Shown: piece by piece, positions 9,601 through 55,591 of the stretch
How the letters are laid out: each line of letters begins with the position of its first letter
How positions within the stretch are numbered: the stretch's first letter is position 1
DNA from: Prevotella sp.
Lineage (GTDB): Bacteria; Bacteroidota; Bacteroidia; Bacteroidales; Bacteroidaceae
Reading direction: 5' to 3'
Assembly: GCA_017417465.1 (NCBI GenBank)
Contig: JAFPZD010000265.1
Location: 1-57,250, forward strand
Length of the DNA: 57,250 bases
The notes under the pieces: model-generated
Database searches by the model: none
What the model was told of the DNA's origin: nothing
What the model saw: the letters and a program-made list of their open reading frames with translations, nothing else
Made by a program: the position numbers and the translations under genes

Positions 9601-10078
9601 GAAGTTCGGCAAGCTGATGAAGGCTGTCGCTGCCGCTGTAGACCAGCTCTCGCAGGAGCAGATTGCCGAGCTCGAGCAGAACGGCACGCTTGCCATCAGC
9701 GTCGATGGACAGGAGCTGACCGTTGAGGCTGTCGACGTGGACATCATCAGCGAGGACATCCCCGGATGGCTCGTTGCCAACGAGGGTGCGCTGACTGTGG
9801 CCCTTGACATCGAGCTCACCGACGAGCTGCGCCAGGAGGGCATGGCCCGTGAGCTGATCAACCGCATCCAGAACCTGCGCAAGGACGGTGGCCTGGAAAT
9901 CACCGACCGTGTGAGCATCGTTGTCAGTCCGCAGGCTGAGGTTGACAAGGCAGTCGAAACGTTTGCCGACTACATCAAGACGCAGGTGCTTGCCGACGCC
10001 ATCACCGTGGCTCCCAACGAGGGTGTGGAGGTAGACTTCGACGACTTCAAACTGAACATAACCATAACAAAGAACTGA
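6647..10078 (+). CDS. ileS: Isoleucyl-tRNA synthetase
   Basis: A 1143-aa class I aminoacyl-tRNA synthetase that charges tRNA-Ile with isoleucine in the cytoplasm. The N-terminal signature appears as NGHPGIHHVLGR (about residues 54-65), where the HIGH box takes the clade-specific form GIHH; the second signature is KMSKR, about residue 700. The editing domain lies between them and the anticodon-binding domain follows. The length and the KMSKR plus EGVDEV context are closer to the long, eukaryote-like IleS type than to E. coli IleS (inference); that type is associated with mupirocin resistance in other bacteria. It has its own consensus promoter and leads the conserved run ileS-dksA-lspA-DUF4296. 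Confidence 0.97.
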   Translation: MAKRFAEHNGLNLTQVNKEILEKWMDEDIFHRSVDEREGCPQFIFYEGPPSANGHPGIHHVLGRALKDAFNRYKTMQGFQVKRKAGWDTHGLPVELSVEKSLGITKADIDNPDSPRYISTEEYNQKCRENVMAYTQEWRDLTERMGYFVDLDHPYITYDNKYIETLWWLLKQLYTKGLLYKGYTIQPYSPAAGTGLSSHELNQPGCYRDVKDTTCTALFRMKNPKPEMTGWGTAYFLAWTTTPWTLAANSALCVGPKIDYVAVETYNPYSAKPITIVMAAARLGAYLAPEGEMTDGGEMPEYKKGEKFMPYRIVGRYKGTDLVGMEYEQLMPAIKPMGEAFRVIPGDYVTTEDGAGIVHIAPNFGADDAFVAKQAGICPIVLIDKKGNERPVVDLQGKYYPIEDLDPDFVRDYVNVDEWQKFAGRYVKNAYDEHLTDKDETLDISICMDLKAQDKVYKIEKHVHNYPHCWRTDKPVLYYPLDSWFIRSTAKKERMSELNKTIGWHPESTGTGRFGNWLENLNDWNLSRSRFWGTPLPIWRSEEGEEKCIGSVEELYNEIEKAVAAGVMEKNPLKEKGFVPGDMSQENYDRIDLHRPYVDYIKLVSDSGQPMKRESDLIDVWFDSGAMPYAQQHYPFENREMIDEGKAFPADFINEGVDQTRGWFFTLHAIATMVFDSVSFRNVISTGLVLDAKGNKMSKRVGNVVSPFEMIDKFGSDAVRFYMMTNSEPWDNLKFDPEGVDEVRRKFFGTLYNTYSFFALYANVDGYEPSVESVAVVQQQTERPEIDRWILSCLNTLVKRVTAEMENYDPTRAGRMIDAFVNDDLSNWYVRLNRKRFWGKEMDADKRSAYDTLYTCLMTVSKLLAPFSPFYADQLYRDLGGACVSVHLDSFPTWDESLIDSDLEARMEMAQKITSMVLALRRKANLKVRQPLSRIMVPATDEQRRHIDAVKKLILSEVNVKELEFVEGQGLLVKKVKCNFRTMGKKFGKLMKAVAAAVDQLSQEQIAELEQNGTLAISVDGQELTVEAVDVDIISEDIPGWLVANEGALTVALDIELTDELRQEGMARELINRIQNLRKDGGLEITDRVSIVVSPQAEVDKAVETFADYIKTQVLADAITVAPNEGVEVDFDDFKLNITITKN

Positions 10079-28804: not shown

Positions 28805-29150
28805 AAAAGTATGGCATTTAGCGCCAAAAACACGACATTTAGCACCAAAAAGGGCCGCATTTCATGTAAAAAGGGGCGCATTTCGTGCACAAAAATGCAA
28901 TTTTCTGCGCTGAAAACGCGTTTTTCTGCAACAACTCGCGCAGCACTTGGCGCAAAAAGTGCCATATTTCGAGCAAAAAATGCCGCATTTAGCACCCAAA
29001 ATGCCGTATTTAGCACACGAAAATGCCGTATTTAGCACCCGAAAATGCCGTATTTAGCACCCGAAAATGCCGCATTTTGCACCCGAAAGTGCCGTATTTA
29101 GCACCCGAAAGTGCCGCATTTAGCACCCGAAAGTGCCGCATTTAGTAACC
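28805..29150. repeat. Tandem array of about 16 units of 21-22 bp
   Basis: The right-hand units, read as CGAAAATGCCG plus TATTTAGCACC, are nearly identical; those on the left are increasingly degenerate, with 21-bp units mixed in. The units abut without spacers, so this is not a CRISPR array. A polarity of divergence from left to right is clear. Confidence 0.9.
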
Positions 29151-29445: not shown

Positions 29446-31725
29446 ATGGACAAGAACAAGATTGCCATATCTCTGAGAAAGTGGAGGGGACTGCTGATCA
29501 TCGTCATGGCAGCCCTCCTCCTGGAGTTGTTGTCGGCCGCGCAGTACTACCTTACGCACCGCATCTTGGACGACGAGCTGGAGAAGCGTGCCGAGAGTGA
29601 GCTGACGCTGAAGGCCATCTTGATTAAGAGCAACCTTAACAGCATTGAGGCCCTGCTGGAACATTCTATGTGGAAGATTCAGGCTCATCTTGACCAACCT
29701 GACTCTGCGTATATCACGATGAGGCGACTGGTGACGATGAGCGAGCATCTGCAGGGTGCCGGCTTGGGATTCGAACCGTATTACTATCCCCAGAAAGGCC
29801 ATTTCTATGAGGTCTATGCCCGCAGGCTGTCCAATGGTGAGGTGGAGACCTCGCAAATTGGTGGCTCGGAGCACGACTATACTCAGTTGGATTTTTATAA
29901 GAGAGTTGTTCAGACTGGTAAAGGCCTATGGACAGAGCCCTATATGGACGATGCGGGCGCCAAGGCACTTATCACGACCTATTTCCAGCCTGTCCGCGAC
30001 AGGAAGGGTGGGGTGGTGGCTGTGGCTGGCGTCGACATGTCACTGGAATGGCTGACTGACACCGTTGACAATCGGCACATCTATCCCTCATCGTTTATCA
30101 TGGTGCTCACCGAGGACGATGTTCCGGTTCTTCAGCCTTTTACGGACCGCATCAGCAGCGATGTGCAACAATACGTCTACCGTCTGATCACCGACAGCAC
30201 CACTGTGGCACGTAAGAAGAGCAAAAGCGGACGGAGCACCGTGCTACATTTTGACACTGACAAGCGCGATGGTACCATCTACTATGCCTTTATGAAAGGG
30301 CAACCGCACTGGAAGATTGCTGTGGTGTGCTATGACGACGAGGTCTTCGCCTCACTGCGGCAGTTGCGCCTGTGGATGCTGGAGCTGATGCTGTTGGCTT
30401 TCTGCATCCTGCTCTATGTAGTCTGGCGTTTTGCACGTGGTGAGAAGAAGATGGTGAGCACCAACCGGCTTCTGGCTGAGAAGACACTTGAAGAAGAGCG
30501 CATGAATGGCGAACTGCGGATAGCCAGTGGCATTCAGCAGGCGCTGCTGCCTTCCGGGGCGTCGGCGCTGAAGGATGCGGGTGAGGCTCAGGTGGAGGGA
30601 CGGCTGATTCCCGCCAAGGCTGTCGGTGGCGACTTATATAATATGTTCGTGCGCGATGACAAGCTGTTTTTCTGCATCGGCGACGTCAGTGGCAAGGGTG
30701 TCCCTGCCGCGCTCATCATGGCCGTCACGCAGACGCTGTTTCACAATGTCACTTCGAGCGAGAGCAATCCTGCGCTGATCATGAACCGACTTAACGCTAC
30801 GGCTTGTCGCAATAATGAGTCGAACATGTTTGCAACATTGTTTGTCGGCGTTCTTGACCTGCCAACAGGTCGCCTGCGCTACTGCAATGCCGGACATGAG
30901 GTGCCCATGCTTTTGAGTGAAAAGTTAAGAGTGAATAGTGAAGAGTTAAGCGTGAAGCCCAACCTTCCTATCGGGCTGTTTAGCGATTTCAATTACGAGA
31001 TGCAGGAGACGGTCATGCCGCCAGGAGCAATACTGTTCCTCTATACCGACGGACTGACTGAGGCCCGACGGGGCTATAGCAACAATGCGACAAGCCAGCG
31101 CGAGGGCCAGGCTGGGAGTAAGCTGTTTGGCAGAAAGCGCGTTAGGGAGATGTTGGAAGGGTGTGGTGACATGAGTCCCAAGCAATTGGTCGACAAGGTC
31201 ATTGCCGAAGTGGCACGTTTCTCTGAGCATACCGAGCAGAGCGACGACCTGACGCTGTTGGCTATCAAATATACGCCTATGGTAGAAAAGATCGTTTTCA
31301 ACGAGGAACTGACGCTGCCTAACGACGTGAAGGAGGTTGAGAAGCTGGGCGTCTTCATCAAAGACGTAACGAGCCGTTTGAACATCGGCAAGCCTTTGGC
31401 ACCAAAGCTGCGGCTGGCCTTGGAAGAGGCAGTGGTCAACGTGATGGAATATGCCTATCCTGCGGGCAGCATGGGCGAAGTGAACATCCGCGCCCTTTCG
31501 GACGGGCAGCGGTTAAGGTTGATCATCACCGACAATGGCATCGCTTTCAATCCCACACAAGCCGCTACTGCCGACACAACGCTCTCGGCAGAAGAGCGCC
31601 CTGTAGGCGGACTGGGCATCCTGCTCATTCGCCAGTTGATGGACTCGATCAACTATGAGCGTATTGACGGGAAGAACGTGCTGACGCTCACGAAAACGTT
31701 GAATACTGAAATCAATAAAACATAA
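29446..31725 (+). CDS. Membrane sensor SpoIIE-type phosphatase with HATPase domain
   Basis: A 759-aa regulator. Membrane helices at about residues 13-34 and 308-328 flank a periplasmic dCache-like sensor (with FYKRVVQTGKGLWTEPYMD and VVAVAGVDMSLEWL). The cytoplasmic part has a PP2C/SpoIIE phosphatase (about 370-605; VGGDLYNMF, GDVSGKGVPAALIM, LYTDGLTEAR, SDDLTLLAIKY) and a C-terminal RsbW-like HATPase_c domain (about 615-755; ALEEAVVNVMEYAYP, GGLGILLIRQLMD). Joining phosphatase and anti-sigma-type kinase in one chain, with a STAS gene next, suggests a self-contained partner-switching module. Codons at 30916-30957 carry a GTGAATAGTGAAG-type repeat as an extra loop (SEKLRVNSEELSVKPN). It may control the following NRPS locus. 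Confidence 0.9.
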   Translation: MDKNKIAISLRKWRGLLIIVMAALLLELLSAAQYYLTHRILDDELEKRAESELTLKAILIKSNLNSIEALLEHSMWKIQAHLDQPDSAYITMRRLVTMSEHLQGAGLGFEPYYYPQKGHFYEVYARRLSNGEVETSQIGGSEHDYTQLDFYKRVVQTGKGLWTEPYMDDAGAKALITTYFQPVRDRKGGVVAVAGVDMSLEWLTDTVDNRHIYPSSFIMVLTEDDVPVLQPFTDRISSDVQQYVYRLITDSTTVARKKSKSGRSTVLHFDTDKRDGTIYYAFMKGQPHWKIAVVCYDDEVFASLRQLRLWMLELMLLAFCILLYVVWRFARGEKKMVSTNRLLAEKTLEEERMNGELRIASGIQQALLPSGASALKDAGEAQVEGRLIPAKAVGGDLYNMFVRDDKLFFCIGDVSGKGVPAALIMAVTQTLFHNVTSSESNPALIMNRLNATACRNNESNMFATLFVGVLDLPTGRLRYCNAGHEVPMLLSEKLRVNSEELSVKPNLPIGLFSDFNYEMQETVMPPGAILFLYTDGLTEARRGYSNNATSQREGQAGSKLFGRKRVREMLEGCGDMSPKQLVDKVIAEVARFSEHTEQSDDLTLLAIKYTPMVEKIVFNEELTLPNDVKEVEKLGVFIKDVTSRLNIGKPLAPKLRLALEEAVVNVMEYAYPAGSMGEVNIRALSDGQRLRLIITDNGIAFNPTQAATADTTLSAEERPVGGLGILLIRQLMDSINYERIDGKNVLTLTKTLNTEINKT
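30916..30957 (+). repeat. Short-period repeat inside the SpoIIE-type gene
   Basis: GAGTGAAAAGTTAAGAGTG and GAATAGTGAAGAGTTAAGCG are related imperfect copies, like the spacer repeat at the lspA start. They encode a loop after the CNAGHEVPMLL strand. Confidence 0.6.
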
Positions 31726-32040: not shown

Positions 32041-32317
32041 GTTAGGAGTTGAGGAGGTGTGGAGGTAAAGTAGAATAGTTCTGCTGCGGATAGTAAATCG
32101 TCAAATCATAAATAGAAAAGGAGTAGAGGAGGAAAGGAGTAGAGGAGGTAAAGTAGAATAGTTCTGCTGCGGATAGCAAATCGTCAAATAGTCAAATCGT
32201 AAATAAATAGTAAATCGTAAATTGTCAAATAGTAAATAGAAATAAATCGTCAAATCGTAAATAGAAAAGGAGTAGGGGAGGAAAGGAGTAGAGAAGTAAA
32301 AAGTAGTAAGAAATAGC
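32041..32317. repeat. Spacer made of short repeats before the barrel gene
   Basis: The 33 bases at 32061-32093 recur at 32144-32176 (offset 83). Bases 32095-32144 recur with few changes at 32243-32292. Between are AAATCGTCAAATAGT-type 7-8 bp units. The whole spacer consists of such units, and a promoter cannot be picked out. Pieces recur inside the NRPS gene (see 36288-36320 and 40667-40716). Confidence 0.8.
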
Positions 32318-33709: not shown

Positions 33710-36700
33710 ATGACAAGTGCAAGTTTGAGCAAATCACAGTATGGCATCTATGCCGAGTGTGTAGGACACAATGGTGAAGTGTGCTACAATCTACCTTATT
33801 TATATATCTTGGATAGAAGCCTGGACGGTGAACGCCTCCGTCAGGCAGTCATGACAGCAGTCAAGGCACATCCGACACTGTTCACCCGCATCGTCCTGAA
33901 CGATGACGGAGAACCGCTGCAAACCATCGATGAGACTGAGACGTTTGAATTGGAAATAGAAGACGTTGAAGGAATCGAGGATGACGTTAAGAACGCCCGG
34001 TTCTCGGAGCTGAATGCTCGGCTAAGGCTTGTCGTGCCCTTCGAGGTGTTCCCGACGGAAAACCGTCGGGCACAGCGGCAAACTCCTAACTCGTCCCTCC
34101 TAACTCCTAACTCGTCCCGGCTGTTCCATATTCGGCTGCTGCGCGATGCCAGTCACTATTATCTGTTCATTGACTATCATCACATCATTGTTGATGGGAC
34201 GTCGATGCAACTGATGCTTGGCGATATCGACAAGGCATATCATGGAGAAACGCTCGACGAGGAGCTGATAAGCATGGCTGAGGTCGCTGACAAGGAGCGT
34301 GAGGAGCGGCAGACAGCAGCCTTCGAAGTGGCAAAGCAATGGTATGGTCAGAACTTTGACTGCGGCGATTGTTTTACCCAGCTGCTGCCCGACCTTGAAA
34401 CAGACGGACGTGCCGAGGCCGCCATGACGCGCTCCCTGCAGGTTAGCCTTGATGCCGTCGAAGTTTTTTGCAAGCGCCATGGCATTTTCAAGAGCACGTT
34501 GTTCACCTCGGCATACGCATTCCTGCTGGCCAAATACAACAACGAGCAGGAATCGCTCTTCACGACGGTGTATAATGGTCGAAAGGACAAGCAGTTGGCC
34601 CGCACGCTGGGAATGTTTGTGAAGACACTGCCCGTGTATGCCAAGTTCGATAATGACACCACCGTGATCGACTTCCTCCGTGCCGGACAGCAGCAGATGA
34701 GTGGCTGTCGTGAGCACGACATCTATTCGTTCACCGACCTGATGGAGGATCTGAAGCTGCAGTCGAACTCGATGTTCGCCTGGCATGCCAATCTCTTTGC
34801 TGATGACAAGATGGGCGACAAGCCGATGAAGGCTGTTCGCATTGGCAACAGCACCCTTGACGCCTCGCTCTATCTGAAAGCCTTTATCCGCGACGGACGC
34901 TGTCAAGTGAAGGCCGAGTACAACGCGAATGAGTATTCCGAGGTGCTGATTGCCGAGTATCGGGGGTGCGGGGGTGCGGGGGTACGAGGTCAGGAGTTCC
35001 TGCGCGATGTTGACATTGCCACTACCTCGCAGGTGGAAATGCTCGACAGCTTTAACCAGACCGACGTGGATTACGACGACACGCAAACCATCGTCTCGCT
35101 GTTCTGCCAGCAGGCTAAGGCTACGCCTGACAATATCGCGGTGGTCTATAAGGATAAGCGGTACACCTATAAAGAAGTGGATGAGATCAGCGACCGCATC
35201 GCCTCATGCATTTGCGGCTTGCTCAAGGGTGGTTACCGTGGGGTGGCGGGTCTTCCCAACGGAGAAGCGCCGGGCACGGCGGCGGATCTTCCCGACGGAG
35301 AAGCGCCGGGCACGGCGGTGGTTTCGGTCTTGATTCCGCGCTGCGAGTGGATGGCCATCGCGTCACTTGGCGTGCTGAAGGCTGGCTGCGCCTACCAACC
35401 GCTTGATCCCAGCTATCCGAAGGAGCGCCTGAACTTCATGATGAAGGATGCCAATGCGAAGCTGCTGATTGCTGATGAGGAGCTTCGCCCCATCGTTGAT
35501 GAGTATCAGGGAGATGTGTTGCTGACGAAGGACTTGATGGGGTTGAGGAATGGTGAAAATGAGGAGTTGAGGAGATGTGGAGTTGAGGAGTTGCGGCGTG
35601 TAAGTCTCAAGCCCCAAGACCTTTTCATCCTTCTCTACACCTCTGGCTCTACGGGCATACCGAAGGGGTGCCAGCTGACACATGGCAACTTGGTGGCATT
35701 CTGCCATTGGTATCAGCGCTTCTACAGCCTGCAGCCAGTGCACAACGTGGCTGCCTACGCCAGCTACGGTTTCGATGCCTGTATGATGGACCTGTATCCG
35801 GCTTTGACTTGTGGTGCCACCGTGCATATCATCCCCGAGGAGCTGCGTCTGGACCTCATCGCCCTCAACGACTACTTTGAGCGAAGCCATATCACCCACT
35901 CGTTTATGACCACACAGGTGGGCTATCAGTTCGCTTCAAATATTGAGAATCACTCGCTGCTGTATCTCTCTACCGGTGGCGAGAAGCTGGCATCGCTCAT
36001 GCCACCCACAGGCTATAAGTTCTACAATGTGTATGGACCTACCGAGTGTACCATTTTCACCACTACTTATCTGGTTGACAGGAAGCTGAAGGACATCCCC
36101 ATCGGTTGCCCGCTCGACAACATGCGCCTCTATATCGTTGACCCGCAGGGCCATCGTCTGCCTGTAGGTGCCGCAGGCGAGCTCTGGGTCAGCGGACCAC
36201 AAGTGAGCCGTGGCTACCTGAACCGTCCCGAAAAGACGACGGAGGTGTATATTGATAACCCGTTCGTTGACCATGATGGCGCAGCCCAAATCGTAAATCG
36301 TAAATTGTCAAATCGTAAATATCAACGCGTTTACCGCACCGGTGACATCGTCCGCTACCTGCCCGATGGCAACATCCAGTTTGTTGGACGCCGCGACGGA
36401 CAGGTGAAGATTCGTGGCTTCCGCATCGAACTGAAAGAGGTGGAGGCCGTCATCCGTGAGTTCCCTGGCATTAAGGACGCTACCGTGCAGGCTTTTGACG
36501 AGGAGGGTGGCAATGGCAAGTTCATTGCAGCCTACATCGTGGCTGACGAGCAGATTGACATTGAGGCACTTGACAATTTCATTCTCGACCAAAAGCCGCC
36601 TTACATGGTGCCTGCCGTGACCATGCAGATAGAACGCATCCCGCTCAACCAAAACCAGAAGGTGAACAAGAAAGCCCTGCCGAAACCCGAGAGAAGCGAA

Positions 36701-39700
36701 AAGCACAAAGCGCAAAGTGAAAAGATAGCCGCACCCCTCAACGTGCTGGAGAAGGCGTTGCACGAGATGATAGCAGGCATTGTGAACAATAGCGATTTCG
36801 ACATCACAACCGTTCTGGGCTATGTGGGCCTGACCTCTATCTCAGCCATCCGTCTGGCCGTGATGGTAAACAAGCGTTTTGGCGTAACCCTCGACTCAAG
36901 AGCCTTGGTGAAGGAGGGCACCGTCCAGAGCATCGAGAACGAGATACTGAAACAGATGCTCATTGACCATTCTTCCATTGACCATTCACCATTGACCATT
37001 GACCATTCTGCTTCGCCCAAGGATGCGGCAGCCAATAATGGTCAATGTTCAATGATCAATGTTCAATGTCCAACGGACAATGTTCAATTAAGCTACGCTC
37101 AGACAGGCGTCTATTTCGAGTGCCTGAAGAATCCTACGTCCACCATCTACAACATCCCGTATTTGCTTACTTTCCCGGCAGGAACTGATGCCGGTCGGTT
37201 GGCTGATGCTGTGAAGGACGTGGTGGCGTGTCATTCTGAGCTGAGTGTGCATTTCTCAGCAGAAGGCGACGCCATTGTGCAGACCACCAAGGACAGCGTG
37301 CCCGTGGAGGTCCCTGTGAGCGAGATGAGCATGGAGGAGCTGGCTACTTACAAGAATGAGTTCGTGCAGCCATTCAACCTTCAGAAAGCACCGCTCTACC
37401 GTTTTGAAGTGGTCAAGACCGACGGTGGCGTGACACTCCTGATGGACGTGCATCATTTGGTGTTTGATGGTGGATCTGCCGACTTGTTCATTCGTCACCT
37501 TTGCAGTGTTCTCGAGGGTGCTGATGTCAAGAGCGAGGACTACACTTACTTCGACTTTGTGACCGACCAGCAGAAGGCCGAGACGTCGGCAACGTTCCAG
37601 GCTTCACAGCAGTTCTTTGCCGAGCGTCTGCAGACTTGCGAGGGTGCCAGCGAGATACCTGCCGACCTGCCAAAGACCGACCAGCAGGGCTACGTTGGTG
37701 AGGCTGTCGTAGAGGTCGACCAGACACGCGTTTCTGCTTTTTGCCGTCAGCAGCAGATCACCCCTGCTCACCTGTTCCTGGCCGCCACGGCCTACGTAGT
37801 GTCCCGCTATACGAACAGCAGGGAGGTTTATCTCAGCACGGTGAGCAGCGGTCGCTCGAACCTGAAGATTGCCGACACTGTGGGCATGTTTGTCAATACC
37901 TTGGCCTTGGGTCTTAGCATTGACGATGTGACTGTCGGTGAGTTCTTGCAGCAGGCTGGTAATACGTTTGATGAGACGTTGCGCCATGAGGACTATCCCT
38001 TTGCCCGCATCGCCTCCGACTATGGCTTCAAGCCAGCTATTGCCTACGCCTATCAAGTAGGTGTGTTGTCGGAATACAAGGTGAACGGCCAGACCATTGG
38101 TCAGGAGCTGCTGGAGTTGAATGTCCCTAAGTTCAAAATCAATATCAAGATAGAGTCGCGCGGCGTTGTGGTTCAGTATGACGATGCCGTTTACTCCCAC
38201 GCTTTGGGAGAGTCGCTGGCAGAGAGCATTGTTACCGTTGTTGAGCGCATGATGGCACAGCCAGACATGAAGGTGCGCCGTCTGTCGATTGTCAGCAAGC
38301 ATCAGGAAGAAGCGTTGGGCCATTTGCGCCAGACGGCTACTGGCGATGCTCCCTTCCGGTTCTTCCACGAGTGTATCAGCCACTTTGCCCAGACGCAACC
38401 AGCCCATGAAGCGCTTGTTGCCATCGACGCGAAGTTTACCTACAAGGAGATGGACGAGGCGACAAACCGCATTGCCAACGCGCTGCGTGAGCGTGGCGTG
38501 AAGCCCCGTGACCGTGTGGCCTTGCTCCTGCCGCGCACCAGTCGGCTCATTCTCTCGCTCTTCGGCGTGCTGAAGTGCGGTGCTGCCTACATTCCCTGCG
38601 ATCCGGACTATCCTGCCGACCGCGTGAAACTGATACTTGAGGACAGCGAAGCCCGCTTTATCATTGGACCCACGCCTCAGCCCATCGCTGAGAAAGAGGG
38701 GAGCGCGTACGCGATACCCGCTGAGAAATGGATTGATGTCGAAACGCTTTTAGCCTCAGAAGTGACCACTCCCGTCTCTTTGGGAGATGACTTTAGTGGC
38801 GAGGAACTGGCGTACCTTATCTACACCTCTGGCTCTACAGGTCGTCCGAAGGGCGTGATGCTGCGTCATGCAGGTATCTGCAACTATCTATACGGTCATC
38901 CTGCCAATGTCTTTGCCAATGGTGTGCTGACCGATGCCGACCGTATTCTCAGTGTGACGACAATCTCGTTCGATGCTGCCCTGCAGGACATCGGCATGGC
39001 CTTCTTCAATGGCAAGACGCTGATTCTCGCCACCGAAGAGCAGGCCAACAATCCGCTTGACTTGTCCCGACTCATTCAGGAGCAACATATTAATATGGTG
39101 TCAGGAACACCCTCGCGGTGGCAGACCTGGTTGACCAGCGATGACTTCTGCAAGGCCATCAGTCAGGTGAAAATCTGTCGTGCGGGTGGTGAGAAGTTCA
39201 GCGATGCCCTTCTGCAGCAGATGCGCAGCGTCACCAAGGCTCGCATCTTCAATTGCTACGGCCCGACGGAGATCACCGTTGCATCGAACAATGCTGAACT
39301 GACCCATGCCACGTTTGTTACTGTCGGCAAACCGCAGTTGAATGTCAAGGAGTTCATTGTCGATGCCGATGGAAACGAACTGCCTGTCGGCGTCGTTGGC
39401 GAATTGTATATCGGAGGCCGAGGGGTGGCTCGTGGCTACAATAACCTTGACGAGATGACCCGTGAGCGCTTCATCGACTACAACCCGTGTGCAAAATCAT
39501 CCAACAGTCAGTCCATAAGGGTCTATAAGTCGGGCGACTATGCCAAGTGGCTCCCCGATGGCAATGTCGTCATCCTTGGTCGTACTGACCACCAGATAAA
39601 GTTGCGTGGCCTGCGTATCGAGCTGGGTGAAATAGAGAATGTGATGCTGTCTGTGGAGGGTATGAAGAAGGTGGTCATTATGATTCGCAAGCTGAACGAG

Positions 39701-41383
39701 AAGGAACACCTCTGCGCCTACTACACCGCAGACCGTGAGATCGCGCCAGATGCCCTGAAGGCTGAAATCTCGAAGCGACTGACGCAGTATATGGTGCCTA
39801 CGGCCTACCTGCAACTGCCGGAAATGCCGATGACGCCCAATGGCAAGACGGATGTGAAGGCGCTGCCCGAGCCGCAGCTCGCCGTGACGTCAGCCTACGA
39901 GGAGCCTGCCAACGACACCGAGCGCACGTTCTGCGACATCTTCGCCGGCATCCTGCAGATGGATCGTGTGGGTGCAACGGATAACTTCTTCGAACTTGGT
40001 GGCACCAGCCTCGTCGTAACTCGTGTCATCATCGAGGCCGACAAGGCCGGACTACACGTGGCCTATGGCGATGTCTTTGCCAATCCGACGCCCCGCCAAC
40101 TCGCCACACTCATCACTGGCTCTTCAGCCGCTGAGGGCTCGTCCGTCGACGAGGTCAGTGGCTATGACTACACCGCCATCAACAACCTTCTCCAGCACAA
40201 CACCCTCGACAACTTCCGCCAGGGTGAGCGCCAGGCTTTAGGCAACGTGCTGCTTACTGGAGCTACTGGCTATCTCGGCATTCATATCTTACGCGAACTG
40301 ATTGACTCGGATGCGCCCCATATCTACTGTCTCGTTCGCAGCAAGACACCAGAGAAGGCTGAGAGCCGTCTGCGCACGCTCCTTTTCTACTATTTTGCCG
40401 ATTCCTTCAAGTCGCTTTTCGGCACGCGTTTGCATGTTATCCTTGGCGATGTCACCAACGACCTTTGTGCCGCGTGTGGCGATACCATTGCCCACAGCAT
40501 CAACACCGTCTTCAACTGCGCTGCCATCGTGAAGCACTTCAGCGAGGGCACTGAAATTGAAGACGTGAATATTGGTGGCGCTCGGCGCTGTGTGGAACTG
40601 TGTATCAAGACTGGTGCAAAGCTCGTGCATATCTCTACTGCCAGCACCCGCGGACTGTGGACTGAGCAAATAGTAAATAGTAAAATGTCGGATAGTAAAT
40701 TGTCCAATAGTAAATCCCTTGATGTTTTCACTGAGCAGCGTTTGTATATGGGCCAGTACCTCGGCAATAAGTACATCTACTCGAAGTTCATGGCCGAACG
40801 GCTCATCCTCGATGCTGTTGCCCTGCACGGACTGAGTGCGAAGATTATGCGTGTGGGCAACCTCGCTGCCCGTTCGACCGATGGTGAGTTCCAGGCAAAC
40901 TTCTCCACCAACTCCTTCATGGGCCGTATCAAGGTTTACAACATGTTGGGCTGCTGTCCTTACGCCATGCGCAATAAACGCGTGGAGTTCTCGCCCATCA
41001 ACGAGGTGGCATGTGCCATCGTGCTCCTTGCCACCACACCCAAGGCGTGTACCGTGTTCCATCCGTACAACATCCACGGACAGTTCCTTGGCGACGTGCT
41101 CATGGGCCTCAGTGCCGTCACCGGTGGTATTCGATTTGTCGAACAGGAGGACTTTGCTGCCGCTATGGAAGCAGCTAAGGACGATCCGCAGAAAGCTCGT
41201 CAGATGGCCTCGCTGCTGGCCTATCAGGACATGGCACATGGCCAGAAGACCACCGACGTTGAGCGCGACAACGACTACACCACACAGGTGCTCTATCGTC
41301 TTGGTTTCTCCTGGTCACCCACTTCGTGGGACTATGTCGAACGCATGCTGACTGCCTTGGGCGGCTTTGGCTTCTTTGAATAG
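33710..41383 (+). CDS. Two-module nonribosomal peptide synthetase C-A-T-C-A-T-R
   Basis: A 2557-aa synthetase; I place the start at ATG 33710 (MTSASLSKSQYGIY), as the open frame before it covers the barrel gene end and a spacer repeat. Domains: C1 (about 1-430; HHIIVDG at 157), A1 (455-960; YTSGSTGIPKG about 643), T1 (1000-1075; Ser 1043 in GLTSIS), C2 (1110-1520; HHLVFDG at 1248), A2 (1540-2045; YTSGSTGRPKG about 1705), T2 (2060-2135; Ser 2100 in GGTSL), terminal NAD(P)H thioester reductase R (2180-2557; GATGYLG, YIYSK at 2355). By-eye specificity codes are D-A-M-F-L-T-V-I-F-K (A1) and D-A-Q-S-C-A-C-V-A-K (A2); I do not assign substrates. Reductive release should give an aldehyde or alcohol; the N-terminal C domain may N-acylate the first residue. 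At least seven short repeats or palindromes are inserted in frame. No phosphopantetheinyl transferase is in the window. Confidence 0.95.
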   Translation: MTSASLSKSQYGIYAECVGHNGEVCYNLPYLYILDRSLDGERLRQAVMTAVKAHPTLFTRIVLNDDGEPLQTIDETETFELEIEDVEGIEDDVKNARFSELNARLRLVVPFEVFPTENRRAQRQTPNSSLLTPNSSRLFHIRLLRDASHYYLFIDYHHIIVDGTSMQLMLGDIDKAYHGETLDEELISMAEVADKEREERQTAAFEVAKQWYGQNFDCGDCFTQLLPDLETDGRAEAAMTRSLQVSLDAVEVFCKRHGIFKSTLFTSAYAFLLAKYNNEQESLFTTVYNGRKDKQLARTLGMFVKTLPVYAKFDNDTTVIDFLRAGQQQMSGCREHDIYSFTDLMEDLKLQSNSMFAWHANLFADDKMGDKPMKAVRIGNSTLDASLYLKAFIRDGRCQVKAEYNANEYSEVLIAEYRGCGGAGVRGQEFLRDVDIATTSQVEMLDSFNQTDVDYDDTQTIVSLFCQQAKATPDNIAVVYKDKRYTYKEVDEISDRIASCICGLLKGGYRGVAGLPNGEAPGTAADLPDGEAPGTAVVSVLIPRCEWMAIASLGVLKAGCAYQPLDPSYPKERLNFMMKDANAKLLIADEELRPIVDEYQGDVLLTKDLMGLRNGENEELRRCGVEELRRVSLKPQDLFILLYTSGSTGIPKGCQLTHGNLVAFCHWYQRFYSLQPVHNVAAYASYGFDACMMDLYPALTCGATVHIIPEELRLDLIALNDYFERSHITHSFMTTQVGYQFASNIENHSLLYLSTGGEKLASLMPPTGYKFYNVYGPTECTIFTTTYLVDRKLKDIPIGCPLDNMRLYIVDPQGHRLPVGAAGELWVSGPQVSRGYLNRPEKTTEVYIDNPFVDHDGAAQIVNRKLSNRKYQRVYRTGDIVRYLPDGNIQFVGRRDGQVKIRGFRIELKEVEAVIREFPGIKDATVQAFDEEGGNGKFIAAYIVADEQIDIEALDNFILDQKPPYMVPAVTMQIERIPLNQNQKVNKKALPKPERSEKHKAQSEKIAAPLNVLEKALHEMIAGIVNNSDFDITTVLGYVGLTSISAIRLAVMVNKRFGVTLDSRALVKEGTVQSIENEILKQMLIDHSSIDHSPLTIDHSASPKDAAANNGQCSMINVQCPTDNVQLSYAQTGVYFECLKNPTSTIYNIPYLLTFPAGTDAGRLADAVKDVVACHSELSVHFSAEGDAIVQTTKDSVPVEVPVSEMSMEELATYKNEFVQPFNLQKAPLYRFEVVKTDGGVTLLMDVHHLVFDGGSADLFIRHLCSVLEGADVKSEDYTYFDFVTDQQKAETSATFQASQQFFAERLQTCEGASEIPADLPKTDQQGYVGEAVVEVDQTRVSAFCRQQQITPAHLFLAATAYVVSRYTNSREVYLSTVSSGRSNLKIADTVGMFVNTLALGLSIDDVTVGEFLQQAGNTFDETLRHEDYPFARIASDYGFKPAIAYAYQVGVLSEYKVNGQTIGQELLELNVPKFKINIKIESRGVVVQYDDAVYSHALGESLAESIVTVVERMMAQPDMKVRRLSIVSKHQEEALGHLRQTATGDAPFRFFHECISHFAQTQPAHEALVAIDAKFTYKEMDEATNRIANALRERGVKPRDRVALLLPRTSRLILSLFGVLKCGAAYIPCDPDYPADRVKLILEDSEARFIIGPTPQPIAEKEGSAYAIPAEKWIDVETLLASEVTTPVSLGDDFSGEELAYLIYTSGSTGRPKGVMLRHAGICNYLYGHPANVFANGVLTDADRILSVTTISFDAALQDIGMAFFNGKTLILATEEQANNPLDLSRLIQEQHINMVSGTPSRWQTWLTSDDFCKAISQVKICRAGGEKFSDALLQQMRSVTKARIFNCYGPTEITVASNNAELTHATFVTVGKPQLNVKEFIVDADGNELPVGVVGELYIGGRGVARGYNNLDEMTRERFIDYNPCAKSSNSQSIRVYKSGDYAKWLPDGNVVILGRTDHQIKLRGLRIELGEIENVMLSVEGMKKVVIMIRKLNEKEHLCAYYTADREIAPDALKAEISKRLTQYMVPTAYLQLPEMPMTPNGKTDVKALPEPQLAVTSAYEEPANDTERTFCDIFAGILQMDRVGATDNFFELGGTSLVVTRVIIEADKAGLHVAYGDVFANPTPRQLATLITGSSAAEGSSVDEVSGYDYTAINNLLQHNTLDNFRQGERQALGNVLLTGATGYLGIHILRELIDSDAPHIYCLVRSKTPEKAESRLRTLLFYYFADSFKSLFGTRLHVILGDVTNDLCAACGDTIAHSINTVFNCAAIVKHFSEGTEIEDVNIGGARRCVELCIKTGAKLVHISTASTRGLWTEQIVNSKMSDSKLSNSKSLDVFTEQRLYMGQYLGNKYIYSKFMAERLILDAVALHGLSAKIMRVGNLAARSTDGEFQANFSTNSFMGRIKVYNMLGCCPYAMRNKRVEFSPINEVACAIVLLATTPKACTVFHPYNIHGQFLGDVLMGLSAVTGGIRFVEQEDFAAAMEAAKDDPQKARQMASLLAYQDMAHGQKTTDVERDNDYTTQVLYRLGFSWSPTSWDYVERMLTALGGFGFFE
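34047..34119. repeat. Palindrome plus heptamers inside C1 of the NRPS
   Basis: CCCGACGG (34051-34058), AAAA, CCGTCGGG (34063-34070), followed by AACTCCT/AACTCGT heptamers up to 34119. They encode about 23 residues in place of the short loop before the strand RLFHIRLL of the condensation domain. Confidence 0.85.
34961..34984 (+). repeat. 8-bp triple repeat in the C1-A1 linker
   Basis: CGGGGGTG twice, then CGGGGGTA; 24 bp, therefore exactly in frame (RGCGGAGV). Confidence 0.85.
35245..35313 (+). repeat. 36-bp tandem duplication of a REP-like unit inside A1
   Basis: Units 35245-35277 and 35281-35313 match at 31 of 33 positions and are 36 bp (12 codons) apart. They encode GLPNGEAPGTAA and DLPDGEAPGTAV. 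A third related copy lies at 34049-34079 (26 of 31 positions). Confidence 0.88.
35560..35596 (+). repeat. GAGTTGAG-type repeat inside A1
   Basis: Bases 35560-35590 are identical over 31 bp to 42801-42831 at the end of the MATE gene. They encode NEELRRCGVEELRR, an extra loop before the A3 motif. Confidence 0.88.
36288..36320 (+). repeat. AAATCGT heptamer repeat inside A1
   Basis: Bases 36293-36313 are identical over 21 bp to 32210-32230 in the spacer before the barrel gene. They encode IVNRKLSNRK between two conserved parts of the adenylation domain. Confidence 0.85.
36961..37088. repeat. Inverted heptamer repeats in the T1-C2 linker
   Basis: CATTGACCATT occurs four times (from 36961, 36976, 36990 and 36997); its reverse complement AATGGTCAATG lies at 37037-37047, followed by GTTCAAT units to 37088. 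The transcript could form a large hairpin; the protein reads as a Ser/His/Asn-rich linker. Confidence 0.85.
40667..40716 (+). repeat. ATAGTAA heptamer repeats inside the reductase domain
   Basis: Five or so units; CAAATAGTAAATAG at 40667-40680 also occurs at 32226-32239. They encode QIVNSKMSDSKLSNSKS after the STAST strand of the reductase. Confidence 0.8.
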
Positions 41384-41440
41384 AAGTCCCCCGATGTCTC
41401 CCTTTTGGGGGAGGGGAGTATTTGGATTTACACTAAGAAA

Positions 41441-42811
41441 ATGAAAGTAGATCATCGTCAGTCAAAAGTGAGCACGCCTCTCACAAATAGGGAGGGGCAG
41501 GGAAGTGGAGCAAGTCTGTTCTACAGTTACCTGTGGGCCTACGTACTGGTAGCACTCTCAGGATGTTTGGGGAACGTGGTCGATGGCATCATCGTGGGCA
41601 ATCTCATCAGTGCCGACGGTGTGAGTGCCATCAACTTGTCAAAGCCCGTCAACCAGTTTATCTTTACCCTCCACCTGCTTATCAATGCAGGTGCGGGTAT
41701 GCTGGTGGGCTATGCTTTGGGACAGAAAAACATCAGTCTCGCCCGTCGCTATTTCTCTTTCTCACTCTCGCTGAGCGTAGGGCTTGGGGTGCTGCTGGCC
41801 CTGTTCGGCGGCGTGCTTTTCCTTGATGAGACTACACGCCTGTTGTGTAACAACGAGCAGATTCTGCCTTTGGCCCGTGACTATATGCAGGTGCTGCTGC
41901 TGGGCAATCCTGCGTTCATCTTGATGTGGGGGCTCTCCGCGATGGTGGGTGTTGACGGACAGCCCAAGTTGGTGTCTTTGGCCGTTATTATCGACAATGC
42001 ACTAAACTTGTTCCTCGACATCGTTTTCATCCAGTGGCTCGGCTGGGGCATCACTGGTTCGTCAGCAGCCACGGTGGTAGGCCATCTGGTGGGTATCGCC
42101 ATCCTGCTGACACATTGGCGAAAGCCAGAGAACCGCAGGCTTCAATTGTCAATGGCCAACTATCAATTCTCAATTACCAGGAAGATCCTCTCCCAAGGTG
42201 CCCCGCTCGCTGTGGCCTCTATCAGCCTCACGCTTTTGCTCCTCTCTGCCAATAGAATCGTGCTCTCAACTCTGGGACAGGCCGGCATCTTCGCCTTTGC
42301 AGTCTGCATGAACCTCTTGCAGGTGTATAATCTCTTCCTCTCTGGCACTTGCCAGACCCTTCAGTCGTTGGGGGCCATCCAGGTGGGACGTCACGATGCC
42401 GAAGGCTTGCGACTTGTGCTGCGTAAGGCTTTCCGTTTCATTACCATTGCGATGGTTGTCACCTGTCTGTTCGTCTGGATAGACCCGCAGGCCATCGCCG
42501 CTTTGTTTGGTGCCAATAATCCGGATTATATCGCTGAGACCGATAGCGCCCTGCGTATCTTCGCCATCAGCTTCATCCCCTTCTGCTACATCTACGTGCT
42601 GATGATTGTCTACAAGTTGCATGGCCATCACCACATGGCTCTGTTCATCTCATTCGCCTTGTCGCTGACAGTCATTCCCGTGATGTGGCTCATTTCGCGA
42701 ACAGCCCCACAATTGTTGTGGTATAGCTATCTGATAGCCTATTTGGTGGAAGCTGTGCTGATTTTCCTCCTACACCGATGGCTTCGCATTCACTTTTTGT
42801 TGAGGAGTTGA
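41441..42811 (+). CDS. MATE-family efflux transporter
   Basis: A 456-aa inner-membrane exporter with about 12 membrane helices, starting at ATG 41441 after AAGAAA. Family features include the duplicated halves, NLISADGVSAINLSKPVN in the first loop and PAFILMWGLSAMVGVDGQPKL in the helix-4/5 region. MATE proteins export drugs or metabolites driven by H+ or Na+. The position 57 bases after the NRPS suggests product export or self-protection. A CAATTGTC-type repeat (42143-42178) lies in the loop before RKILSQGAP, and the last residues (LLRS) come from the GAGTTGAG spacer repeat. Confidence 0.9.
   Translation: MKVDHRQSKVSTPLTNREGQGSGASLFYSYLWAYVLVALSGCLGNVVDGIIVGNLISADGVSAINLSKPVNQFIFTLHLLINAGAGMLVGYALGQKNISLARRYFSFSLSLSVGLGVLLALFGGVLFLDETTRLLCNNEQILPLARDYMQVLLLGNPAFILMWGLSAMVGVDGQPKLVSLAVIIDNALNLFLDIVFIQWLGWGITGSSAATVVGHLVGIAILLTHWRKPENRRLQLSMANYQFSITRKILSQGAPLAVASISLTLLLLSANRIVLSTLGQAGIFAFAVCMNLLQVYNLFLSGTCQTLQSLGAIQVGRHDAEGLRLVLRKAFRFITIAMVVTCLFVWIDPQAIAALFGANNPDYIAETDSALRIFAISFIPFCYIYVLMIVYKLHGHHHMALFISFALSLTVIPVMWLISRTAPQLLWYSYLIAYLVEAVLIFLLHRWLRIHFLLRS
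42143..42178 (+). repeat. CAATTGTC/CAATTCTC repeat inside the MATE gene
   Basis: Imperfect 7-9 bp units encoding QLSMANYQFSIT in a cytoplasmic loop. Confidence 0.6.
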
Positions 42812-42846
42812 GGAGATGTGGAGTTGAGGAGATGTGGAGTTGAGGA
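42801..42846 (+). repeat. GAGTTGAG/GAGATGTG octamer repeat at the MATE gene end
   Basis: A 16-bp unit repeated about 2.5 times, covering the stop codon. 31 bp are identical to a stretch inside NRPS domain A1. Confidence 0.88.
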
Positions 42847-42897
42847 GGTAAAGTAGTAGAGTAGTAAAGTAGTAACAACAAAAAAACTTACGAATTG

Positions 42898-52379: not shown

Positions 52380-54524
52380 ATGACTCCAGATATTTTTACA
52401 ACACTGATTGCCCAGAGCCTGAACCTGAACTTGGAGGCTGTGCGCAATACGCTGGCCTTGCTGGCCGAAGGCTGTACCATTCCATTTATCTCACGTTATC
52501 GCAAGGAGCGCACCGGCGCCCTCGACGAAGTGCAGATTGCCGCCATCAGCGACGAGAACGAGCGGCTGCAGGACATTGCGAAGCGCAAAGAGACCGTCGT
52601 CAAGACGATTACTGAACAGGGAAAGATGACGCCTGAGCTGCAACAACGCATTGCCGACTGCTGGGATGCCACAGAGCTGGAAGACATCTACCTGCCATAC
52701 AAGCCACGCCGTCGTACACGTGCGCAGGTGGCTCGTGAGCAGGGGCTTGAGCCGTTGGCCCTCGTCTTGCTACAGCAACACACACGTGACCCTGAGCAAG
52801 CTGCCCTGCCGTTCGTTGTGGGCGATGTTGGCGATGTGGAGACTGCCCTGAAAGGGGCGCAGGACATCATTGCCGAGATGGTCAGTGAGGATGAGCGTTC
52901 ACGCCAACAGCTGCGTGGCAGCTACCGTCGCACGGCCATCATCACATCGAAAGTGGTCAAAGCCAAGGCTGACAGTGACGAGGCCGCTAAGTACAGCGAC
53001 TACTTCGACTGGCAGGAACCACTGCGGCGCTGCTCCAGCCACCGCCTGCTGGCCATGCGTAGAGGCGAGAGCGAGGGCATCCTGCGACTGAGCATCGACC
53101 CTGTCAGTGATGAGGAGTGCATCGATCGTCTGAAGCGTCATTATGTTTATGGCAACACACCCTGTGGGCGCTTGGTCGGTGAGGCCGTGGAGGACGGCTA
53201 CAAACGGCTGCTGAAGCCCAGCATCGAGACCGAGTTCAACAATCTGAGCAAGGAGAAGGCCGACGAGGAGGCCATTCGTGTGTTTGCTGAGAACCTGCGG
53301 CAGCTGCTCCTTGGCGCACCGCTGGGGCAGAAGCGCGTGATGGGCATCGACCCAGGATTCCGTACGGGTTGTAAGGTGGTGTGCCTTGATGCGCAGGGTA
53401 ACCTGTTGCACCATGAGGCCATCTTCCCACACCCTCCAGTGAATAAGCGCATGCAGGCTACCGTTCATCTTCAGCAGATGCTGCGCGACTACCAAGTGGA
53501 GGCTATTGCTATTGGCAATGGCACTGCCAGCCGTGAGACGAAAGCCTTTGTGGAAGACGCCAAAGAAGCTTCTGTGCCAGTCTTTGTGGTCTCTGAGGAC
53601 GGCGCATCGGTCTATTCGGCATCGAAGGTGGCACGCGACGAGTTCCCCGACGAGGATGTCACTGTCCGTGGGGCTGTTTCCATAGGTCGACGACTGATGG
53701 ACCCGCTGGCTGAGCTCGTGAAGATTGACCCAAAGAGCATCGGGGTAGGGCAGTACCAGCACGACGTAGACCAGACAAAGTTGAAGCATCAGCTCGACCA
53801 GACCGTTGAGTTTTGCGTTAATCAGGTGGGCGTCAACCTCAACACGGCTTCGCAGCACTTGTTGCAATATGTCAGTGGTCTGGGACCTGCACTGGCGAAG
53901 AACATTGTGGACTACCGCCGTGAAAACGGGGCGTTCACCTCACGCTCACAGCTGAAGAAGGTGCCCCGACTGGGACCTGCCGCCTTCGAACAGTGTGCAG
54001 GCTTCCTGCGAATACCCAATGCCAAGAACCCGCTCGACAACAGTGCCGTGCATCCTGAGCGCTATGCCGTTGTTGAGCAGATAGCCCACGACAGTGGCTG
54101 TGCTGTCAGCGATCTGGTGGGCACTGGCAAGGAGGCTTCGGAGCTTCGCGCGCGCGTAAATATAAATAGGTATGTTACCGATGAGGTGGGATTGCCCACA
54201 CTGACAGATATCATGCAGGAACTGGAAAAACCAGGGCGTGATCCACGTGAGCAGCTCGAGGAATTCGAGTTCGACAATCGCGTACAGACCATTGACGATC
54301 TGGATGAAGGCATGATACTGCCAGGCATCGTGACAAACATCACCAATTTTGGCGCTTTCGTCGACATCGGTGTCCATCAGGACGGTCTTGTACACATATC
54401 GCAGATAGCCAACCGCCGCATCGCTCATCCTACGGACGTGCTGCGCCTGCACCAGCATGTTGAAGTGAAGGTACTTGAAGTGGATCGTCGGCGCAATCGC
54501 ATCTCGCTCACCATGAAGCTATGA
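52380..54524 (+). CDS. tex: Tex-family RNA-binding transcription accessory protein
   Basis: A 714-aa protein. The N-terminal helical region (about 1-310) is followed by a YqgF-type RNase H-like domain (GIDPGFRTGCKVVCLD, about residue 322), a helix-hairpin-helix region (LNTASQHLLQYVSGLGPALA, about 485-505) and a C-terminal S1 RNA-binding domain (about 640-714; PGIVTNITNFGAFVDIGVHQDGLV). Tex binds nucleic acids and RNA polymerase and affects transcription and stress tolerance. Its start codon touches a spacer repeat. Confidence 0.95.
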   Translation: MTPDIFTTLIAQSLNLNLEAVRNTLALLAEGCTIPFISRYRKERTGALDEVQIAAISDENERLQDIAKRKETVVKTITEQGKMTPELQQRIADCWDATELEDIYLPYKPRRRTRAQVAREQGLEPLALVLLQQHTRDPEQAALPFVVGDVGDVETALKGAQDIIAEMVSEDERSRQQLRGSYRRTAIITSKVVKAKADSDEAAKYSDYFDWQEPLRRCSSHRLLAMRRGESEGILRLSIDPVSDEECIDRLKRHYVYGNTPCGRLVGEAVEDGYKRLLKPSIETEFNNLSKEKADEEAIRVFAENLRQLLLGAPLGQKRVMGIDPGFRTGCKVVCLDAQGNLLHHEAIFPHPPVNKRMQATVHLQQMLRDYQVEAIAIGNGTASRETKAFVEDAKEASVPVFVVSEDGASVYSASKVARDEFPDEDVTVRGAVSIGRRLMDPLAELVKIDPKSIGVGQYQHDVDQTKLKHQLDQTVEFCVNQVGVNLNTASQHLLQYVSGLGPALAKNIVDYRRENGAFTSRSQLKKVPRLGPAAFEQCAGFLRIPNAKNPLDNSAVHPERYAVVEQIAHDSGCAVSDLVGTGKEASELRARVNINRYVTDEVGLPTLTDIMQELEKPGRDPREQLEEFEFDNRVQTIDDLDEGMILPGIVTNITNFGAFVDIGVHQDGLVHISQIANRRIAHPTDVLRLHQHVEVKVLEVDRRRNRISLTMKL

Positions 54525-54526
54525 TT

Positions 54527-54636
54527 CCTCTCGGAGAAGTCCATGGGTCCTCTCGGAGAAGTCTGTGAGTCTTCTCGGAGAAGTCCATGGTTTCTCTCGG
54601 AGAAGTCTGTGAGTCCTCTCCGAGTAGACTATTCGG
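54527..54636 (+). repeat. Five exact 22-bp tandem units after tex
   Basis: Units start at 54527, 54549, 54571, 54593 and 54615. The core TCTCGGAGAAGTC is shared; the following 8 bases alternate between CCATGGGT-like and CTGTGAGT forms, giving a 44-bp higher-order period. Unit 5 is diverged. The period equals that of the 28.8-kb array. Confidence 0.9.
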
Positions 54637-55407: not shown

Positions 55408-55481
55408 CGGTGCGTACGAGATTCGAACTCGTGACCTCCTGCGTGACAGGCAGGCATTCTAACCTACTGAACTAACGCACC
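55408..55481 (-). tRNA. tRNA-Asp (GTC), copy 2
   Basis: A 74-base cloverleaf on the - strand. The acceptor stem GGTGCGT pairs with ACGCACC, with discriminator G as expected for Asp. The anticodon stem CCTGC/GCAGG encloses loop CTGTCAC with anticodon GTC; the T arm has GTTCGAATC. CCA is not encoded. Identical to the copy at 55518-55591. Confidence 0.96.
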
Positions 55482-55517: not shown

Positions 55518-55591
55518 CGGTGCGTACGAGATTCGAACTCGTGACCTCCTGCGTGACAGGCAGGCATTCTAACCTACTGAACTAACGCACC
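55518..55591 (-). tRNA. tRNA-Asp (GTC), copy 1
   Basis: Identical in sequence to 55408-55481 and 36 bases upstream of it in the direction of transcription, so the two are probably cut from one precursor. Confidence 0.96.

Follow-up and report, generated by a model that had tools for sequence, protein, structure and literature searches.

Short tandem repeats and palindromes lie in frame in an NRPS gene of a Prevotella sp. and are dispersed through its genome

An NRPS gene of a Prevotella sp. carries several short repeats in frame, and we consider it probable that they are members of short repeats that have spread through the genome and persist in genes where the reading frame is kept, mostly in variable stretches or linkers. 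The repeats are found throughout the genome, most of the inserts are absent from orthologues, and the gene is open with a codon-position pattern like that of purifying selection. Some of the same sites hold different repeats in other orthologues, and repeat units are common to arrays inside and outside genes. Throughout this text, the window is the whole 57,250-nt stretch analyzed, from one Prevotella sp. contig (C154), and its own genome is the draft that carries this contig (4.42 Mb in 278 contigs, 90.8% complete, 5.53% estimated contamination). Relatives in public records are mostly MAGs from the rumen and other gut sites, labeled as Prevotella, Prevotellaceae, or other Bacteroidales.

Pfam identified two Condensation, two AMP-binding, and two PP-binding stretches plus NAD_binding_4 in the NRPS. 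An earlier note on this DNA had held that the frame is kept through the repeats and that the catalytic motifs are intact, and both statements are borne out: the reading frame runs through 2557 codons, free of the stop codons that would mark a dead gene, and its translation contains HHIIVDG and HHLVFDG in the C domains, YTSGSTG in both A domains, GGTSL in T2, and GATGYLG and YIYSK in R, which we take to be the catalytic motifs of these domains. T1 reads GLTSI, which is conserved across 30 aligned sequences. Compared with five orthologues, the gene shows nucleotide differences of 0.17, 0.13-0.14, and 0.50-0.53 at codon positions 1, 2, and 3, respectively, a pattern as expected under purifying selection; from this pattern and the open frame, we infer that the enzyme probably still works. 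The gene and the repeats in and near it are as follows.

33710..41383, + strand: NRPS gene, C-A-T-C-A-T-R, 2557 aa (Pfam and stop-free translation)
30915..30957, + strand: in-frame heptamer array in the upstream SpoIIE/HATPase gene (29446-31725)
32173..32268, unstranded: intergenic array of ATAGTAA and AAATCGT units (Tandem Repeats Finder, TRF)
34049..34072, - strand: palindromic element P1, TGCCCGACGG-TTTT-CCGTCGGGAA, in C1 (exact pattern found 8 times in the genome; no residue opposite aa 115-134 in 73/73 orthologues)
34081..34113, + strand: heptamer array AACTCCT adjoining P1, in C1 (TRF)
34961..34983, + strand: octamer array CGGGGGTG at the end of C1, replacing a native stretch, net -3 aa (TRF, orthologue alignment)
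35245..35318, + strand: two 36-bp units in A1, each with one P1-type hairpin (TRF, palindrome scan)
35560..35593, + strand: octamer array TGAGGAGT in A1 (TRF; aa 617-627 without an opposite residue in 55/73 orthologues)
36288..36320, + strand: heptamer array AAATCGT in A1, between NPF and YRTGD (TRF; aa 855-867 unmatched in 67/73)
36961..37007, + strand: heptamer array CATTGAC, left arm of an inverted repeat in the T1-C2 linker (TRF)
37037..37088, + strand: heptamer array AATGTTC, right arm of the same inverted repeat (TRF)
38684..38707, + strand: 8 extra aa in A2, overlapping a palindrome at 38695-38722 (unmatched in 72/73)
39482..39508, + strand: 9 extra aa in A2, a shared insertion spot (unmatched in 70/73; L111, L048, and L081 have other inserts there)
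40676..40715, + strand: period-15 array AATAGTAAATTGTCC in the R domain (TRF; aa 2324-2337 unmatched in 70/73)
42799..42875, unstranded: octamer arrays GTTGAGGA and GTAAAGTA between genes, the first starting at the end of ORF 41405-42811

All seven places at which repeats or palindromes had been noted in the NRPS gene do hold them. TRF returned 11 rows for the gene, and the 8 with periods of 7, 8, 14, 16, or 21 merge into six regions amounting to 222 bp; the 36-bp and period-15 sites lie outside those 8 rows. Rows of the period-7/8 type averaged 0.09 in 100 synonymous-codon shuffles and 0.03 in 100 codon-order shuffles, never exceeding 1 in either set vs. 8 in the real gene. The two P1-type hairpins of the 36-bp units (35253-35276 and 35289-35312) both lie on the - strand, and the period-15 array looks by eye like degenerate heptamers. 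In the T1-C2 linker, opposite heptamer arrays form an inverted repeat (36976-37068) of 32 nt, 88% complementary, with arms 29 nt apart. Extra residues at 33986-34018, 38684-38707, and 39482-39508 were missing from the earlier list, and its idea of one repeat family gives way to two classes or more, since palindromes occur beside the 7-8 bp arrays. Elsewhere, the window has tandem arrays with longer periods of 22 and 44 bp (28956-29145 and 54515-54624) and two tandem tRNA matches with equal scores on the - strand (55408-55481 and 55518-55591), besides which Rfam at gathering cut-offs returned nothing from five sources.

To compare the gene with its relatives, we kept 73 full-length orthologues, dropping sequences of <2380 or >2620 aa, those with 60% identity or less or covering 2400 residues or fewer, and identical sequences. 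Most orthologue stop-to-stop frames are about 2414-2460 aa long, which makes the NRPS of the window some 100-140 aa longer than the majority. There is no opposite residue at aa 115-134 in any of the 73 orthologues, at aa 93-103 in 71, at aa 617-627 in 55, at aa 855-867 in 67, at aa 1659-1666 in 72, at aa 1925-1933 in 70, and at aa 2324-2337 in 70. The gaps opposite aa 115-134, 855-867, and 2324-2337 support insertion, but there is no clean gap at aa 504-536 or in the T1-C2 linker (aa 1094-1116), unmatched in 0/73 and 2/73 orthologues, respectively, because there the array sits on a shorter native stretch. The claim of seven insertions agrees with most sites, where the residues are missing from most orthologues, but those at 34961 and 35245 appear as replacements, two places at which protein alignment alone cannot tell insertion from replacement. 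At 34961-34984, the end of C1 reads YRGCGGAGVRG instead of about FLESYEAVVEGFLS in the 14 closest orthologues shown, and 35245-35313 falls within a 33-residue stretch (aa 504-536) that faces about 7 residues in relatives (KGLGAED), a net gain of 26. The earlier note had also asked whether orthologues have the same residues with non-repetitive DNA. This is partly so at the R site, where L111 and L048 carry related residues (IVNDKLSNGKTL and IVNSKLSAGMTP) and their DNA is no longer a clear repeat. We read these residues as a probable older insert that has eroded, so that not all inserts would be private or recent.

Other repeats occur in the orthologues at the same or other sites. Heptamers are present in L044, L053 (CTCAACT), L087, and L113, the L048 orthologue has a 57-aa insert, an 84-bp palindromic element occurs three times with 95-100% identity in one NRPS gene of L110 (L110:10383-12620), and the orthologues of L066 and L090 have a palindromic element in common. 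Right after the NRPS stop in the window (41385-41500) there are runs of CTCCC and GGGAG that look similar by eye to the palindromic inserts in the L066 and L090 orthologues; a BLAST search of the pooled sequences gave no second copy of this segment. The repeat survey took in 69 of the 73 aligned orthologues, and 12 of these have at least one period-7/8 array in the NRPS gene. None has more than two, against six regions in the window gene, which is therefore an outlier. The comparison had no strain pair with and without an insert; full-length orthologues are at most about 75% identical to the window gene (pieces reach 84%), so the ends of the insertions are unreadable. In the closest long relative, L095 (80% identical over aa 633-2557), two ORFs take the place of the single gene (L095:8061-15427). 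Homologous pieces detected with tblastn lie in different frames, the first ending at 9740 and the second starting at 9761, and a CTCTCACC heptamer array (9747-9770) sits between or across them. Unless it is an assembly error, this split is what a frame-breaking copy would look like. The same locus also carries P2 and P4 elements.

The earlier placement of the inserts in loops received a mixed answer from an AlphaFold2 model of C1-A1-T1 (mean pLDDT 75.2). Twelve stretches of the model score below 50, and the three longest, 118-134, 509-533, and 855-872, coincide with inserts; the other nine lie off the inserts, one spanning conserved positions 645-651 around the YTSGSTG motif, and the low-scoring stretches do not include aa 617-627, also an insert. 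Low pLDDT also follows from missing aligned residues, so the inserts of C1-A1-T1 may, but need not, lie in loops. At the 855-872 site, the solved LgrA A domain has a 17-residue gap. A model of A2-T2-R was too poor for placing inserts (mean pLDDT 61.5).

The heptamer and octamer arrays extend far beyond the NRPS gene. Over 1.71 Mb, made up of the window and 80 related loci, TRF yielded 149 period-7 and 40 period-8 rows vs. none of either in one Markov-simulated set; period-22 rows were in excess as well (26 in the pooled related loci vs. 0 simulated). In a sample of 293.9 kb of the own genome plus the window, most contigs of which were chosen for holding one repeat, period-7/8 arrays reached 10.8 per 100 kb (32 arrays) in ORFs of at least 200 aa, 19.6 (4) in ORFs of 100-199 aa, and 130 (45) outside ORFs, as called by a crude longest-first script that may place ORFs in intergenic DNA. 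Arrays are thus depleted in coding DNA, yet not confined to intergenic DNA: 32 of 81 fall within ORFs of at least 200 aa, where their density is one twelfth of that outside. Besides the SpoIIE/HATPase gene, long ORFs of the own genome with in-frame arrays include a hybrid two-component system (three), an M24 peptidase, FecR (two), and a serpin. Among the related loci, the NRPS family has 31 arrays (5.3 per 100 kb), other long ORFs have 44 (4.9 per 100 kb), and DNA outside ORFs has 88 per 100 kb; as a family, NRPS genes are not special for arrays. One heptamer pattern was present in 140 of 295 genomes of the order and 75 of 100 of the genus (the own genome, with 252 overlapping matches, included in both). 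AACT-type heptamers are themselves common, so a backward-read control is no clean null, and this survey, in which some genus genomes are incomplete, was used for presence only.

Many heptamer units share a T-V-A-A core. Aligned, the 78 distinct units give a motif of 3.95 bits. The value is 3.47 (sd 0.09, maximum 3.64 of 40) after shuffling letters inside each unit, and random genomic heptamers reach 3.39 (maximum 3.67 of 40). The share of units with T[CG]AA is 40%, vs. 16% of shuffled ones, and with T[ACG]A[AC] it is 69% vs. 43%; only such wider patterns exceed expectation, as TCAA alone (21%) stays below the shuffle maximum of 21.8%. Setting aside arrays that were out of register, invariant, or shorter than three units left 159 arrays in register, 106 of which fit T[ACG]AA. 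Mean variability along the unit in these was 0.05, 0.09, 0.05, 0.05, 0.11, 0.08, and 0.15, with T1, A3, and A4 varying least and position 7 most; 0 of 2000 rotations were as uneven. In the TGAA subset (53 arrays), the unevenness was weaker (p 0.016), and the fourth position was not low. Units are shared by 188 of 1607 array pairs within genomes (0.117) vs. 813 of 16303 between genomes (0.050), and none of 500 label shuffles reached the former value (maximum 0.103); leaving out the own genome, the counts are 32/243 within and 433/9042 between. Shared mutation bias could be part of the cause. In the genome sample, 18 of 20 arrays in ORFs of at least 200 aa share their unit with an array outside such ORFs. 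All four heptamer arrays of the NRPS gene are among these 18, and the unit of the one at 34081-34113 is common to 6 outside arrays.

These observations bear on local replication slippage, by which every heptamer or octamer array would have expanded at its own site out of a few native codons, nothing moving between loci. PMC4679880 cites a survey in which heptanucleotides are the most abundant long simple repeats in most genomes, with slippage proposed, and at 35245-35318 the 36-bp unit simply occurs as two tandem copies. Simple slippage at individual sites, however, does not predict the unit bias, the uneven variability along the heptamer, or unit sharing beyond that of the shuffled labels, and by itself it would hardly give the opposite arrays that form the inverted repeat in the T1-C2 linker; the palindromes, moreover, are dispersed. 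We regard slippage as an unlikely source of these arrays.

The palindromes belong to small dispersed families. Two of the exact-pattern copies of P1 in the own genome lie in the NRPS gene, which has a third copy with one change at 35253, and other called ORFs contain P1 as well. Its exact pattern was found once among 59 other genus genomes; allowing one change, it is also present in the NRPS of L079. P4, a second family formed by GGCTACGGGTAGGCG, a hairpin, and CGGGAATG, has no copy in the window. In-frame copies lie in the NRPS genes of L086 (three copies), L094, and L095, and its exact pattern occurs in 40 of 120 genus genomes (the own genome included, with 20 copies), while the backward control occurs in 0/120. 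Its stem covaries: among 36 eleven-base stems, the third pair is GC in 25, CG in 10, and GT in 1, and the fourth is CG in 25, GC in 10, and AG in 1. We followed the frame of P4 in 51 distinct copies from 40 stretches of three genomes and five earlier loci. A clear long frame runs through 31 of them (6/20 in the own genome, 15/17 in G103, 7/11 in G034, and 3/3 in L094), 18 reading the same frame (ERLRVG...SGM) and 8, 4, and 1 reading other stop-free frames; the remaining 20 lack one (14/20, 2/17, 4/11, and 0/3, respectively). Ten of the 17 listed host ORFs were scanned, all ten having Pfam matches. In the CTP synthase of the own genome, P4 lies between the two domains, and hosts in G103 include IF-2, RlmN, and GH115. 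Three of these in-frame hosts are located as follows.

L155:1128-2933: CTP synthase (own genome)
L181:2-2404: IF-2 (G103)
L170:1293-2462: RlmN (G103)

The occurrence of P4 in frame in unrelated genes indicates that in-frame palindromes are general in this group. For the palindromes only, and compatibly with the reading we prefer, one could propose REPs moved by a RAYT/Y1 transposase encoded in the genome. P4 does have GTAG next to its covarying stem, and the own genome gives two Y1_Tnp matches, a domain present in 14 of 14 P4-rich vs. 9 of 16 P4-free genomes, an association confounded by genome choice (the genomes were hand-picked) and completeness. Against this, none of the 14 Y1_Tnp loci fetched (2.5-3.4 kb; 7 from P4-carrying genomes, 2 from the own genome), a minority of all matches, contains P4 or P1, and no GTAG is seen on P1 by reading. 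A RAYT origin of the palindromes is accordingly doubtful.

The explanation we favor, spread through the genome with persistence in genes where the frame is kept, would involve two classes of repeats: the 7-8 bp arrays, whose units often have a T-V-A-A core, and the small palindromes, represented in the window by P1. Copies or templates would move between loci instead of arising afresh, and selection would remove those that break the frame; the frame change in L095 is as expected if some copies break genes. Inside genes, copies would remain where the frame is kept and the protein tolerates them. The earlier proposal of repeated insertion filtered by selection agrees with the open gene and its purifying-selection pattern, but the arrays are genome-wide and not special to the NRPS. 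A stronger version, which we put forward only tentatively, is that the heptamer arrays of Bacteroidales are a mobile or template-copied class, perhaps recognized via the T-V-A-A core by some machinery, that seeds ready-made peptides into the loops of functioning enzymes and drives loop evolution in proteins. That the inserts are adaptive, as length-variable linkers or contingency loci tuning or switching the enzyme, seems very improbable. Slipping non-triplet arrays would turn the gene off, and L095 has a split gene whose homologous frame shifts at the array, but unrelated sequences occupy the same sites in different species, the array density of the NRPS family is like that of other long ORFs, and the arrays are imperfect, which should limit slippage. 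Misassembly or a dead gene, which the number of contigs in the draft and its estimated contamination might suggest, is very unlikely in view of the 2557 open codons, the codon-position pattern, and similar inserts in separately assembled genomes.

If spread with persistence in frame is the true reading, these repeats supply nature's own collection, and a large one, of insertions that known enzymes have tolerated, and they are a source from which new loops arise. They also caution that a peptide in such proteins, NVQCSM or QLSTLNSQ for example, can be repeat DNA. An old puzzle, why bacterial genomes favor 7-bp repeats, becomes testable through the uneven variability of positions within the heptamer.

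Several known systems resemble parts of what we describe. The cyanobacterial STRR are a heptanucleotide repeat system. In PMC4679880 and PMC4692102, heptanucleotide repeats (TAACTGA and GGGNATC arrays) are dispersed, mostly intergenic, and depleted in coding DNA. The arrays described here are likewise 7-bp tandem units dispersed in the genome, mostly intergenic and depleted in coding DNA; unlike those reports, which deal with one or few units, there are 78 distinct units with a common bias, repeatedly in frame in long genes. BrickBuilt of Porphyromonas gingivalis also compares, as a dispersed Bacteroidales repeat with a tandem core, and its tandem unit is not known to be a heptamer. It is a dispersed MITE with a minisatellite (PMC4596501), described as strictly intergenic in PMC10969869. 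A literature search that covered few subscription journals turned up no paper describing either heptamer arrays or palindromes within genes in these bacteria, and among the papers searched, none reports in-frame non-triplet heptamer arrays with a shared unit bias in Bacteroidales genes; an excess of heptamers is known, mainly from intergenic DNA. In-frame palindromes are known as RPEs and intragenic REPs. According to PMC3733652, GTAG- and CGTC-tagged REPs are palindromes of 20-40 bp, sometimes within ORFs and even twice in one; intragenic REPs are suggested there to be neutral in linkers or loops, and CGTC repeats, with stems of 8-9 bp and loops of 4-5, are reported from Bacteroidetes too. 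P1 (stem 8, loop 4) fits the geometry of CGTC REPs, with no unpaired CGTC tag seen by reading, and a GTAG is read beside the hairpin of P4 but is not seen on P1, the family of the window. The Rickettsia palindromic elements (RPEs) are small palindromes that lie in frame within genes of unrelated kinds and are translated into a conserved peptide (PMC10969869), and some of them are short CGTC repeats (PMC3733652). Like RPEs, P4 occurs in frame in several genes, among them those for CTP synthase, IF-2, and RlmN, and P1 in the NRPS. PMC10969869 gives about 150 bp for RPEs, and the cores are of about 24 bp in P1 and 27-35 bp in P4, compared by description; the window also has heptamer arrays, which RPEs are not. 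In-frame repeat insertion is best known from Rickettsia, and the probable case described here comes from a gut group with many sequenced relatives, in which the empty site, the repeat insert, and the eroded insert could be traced gene by gene.
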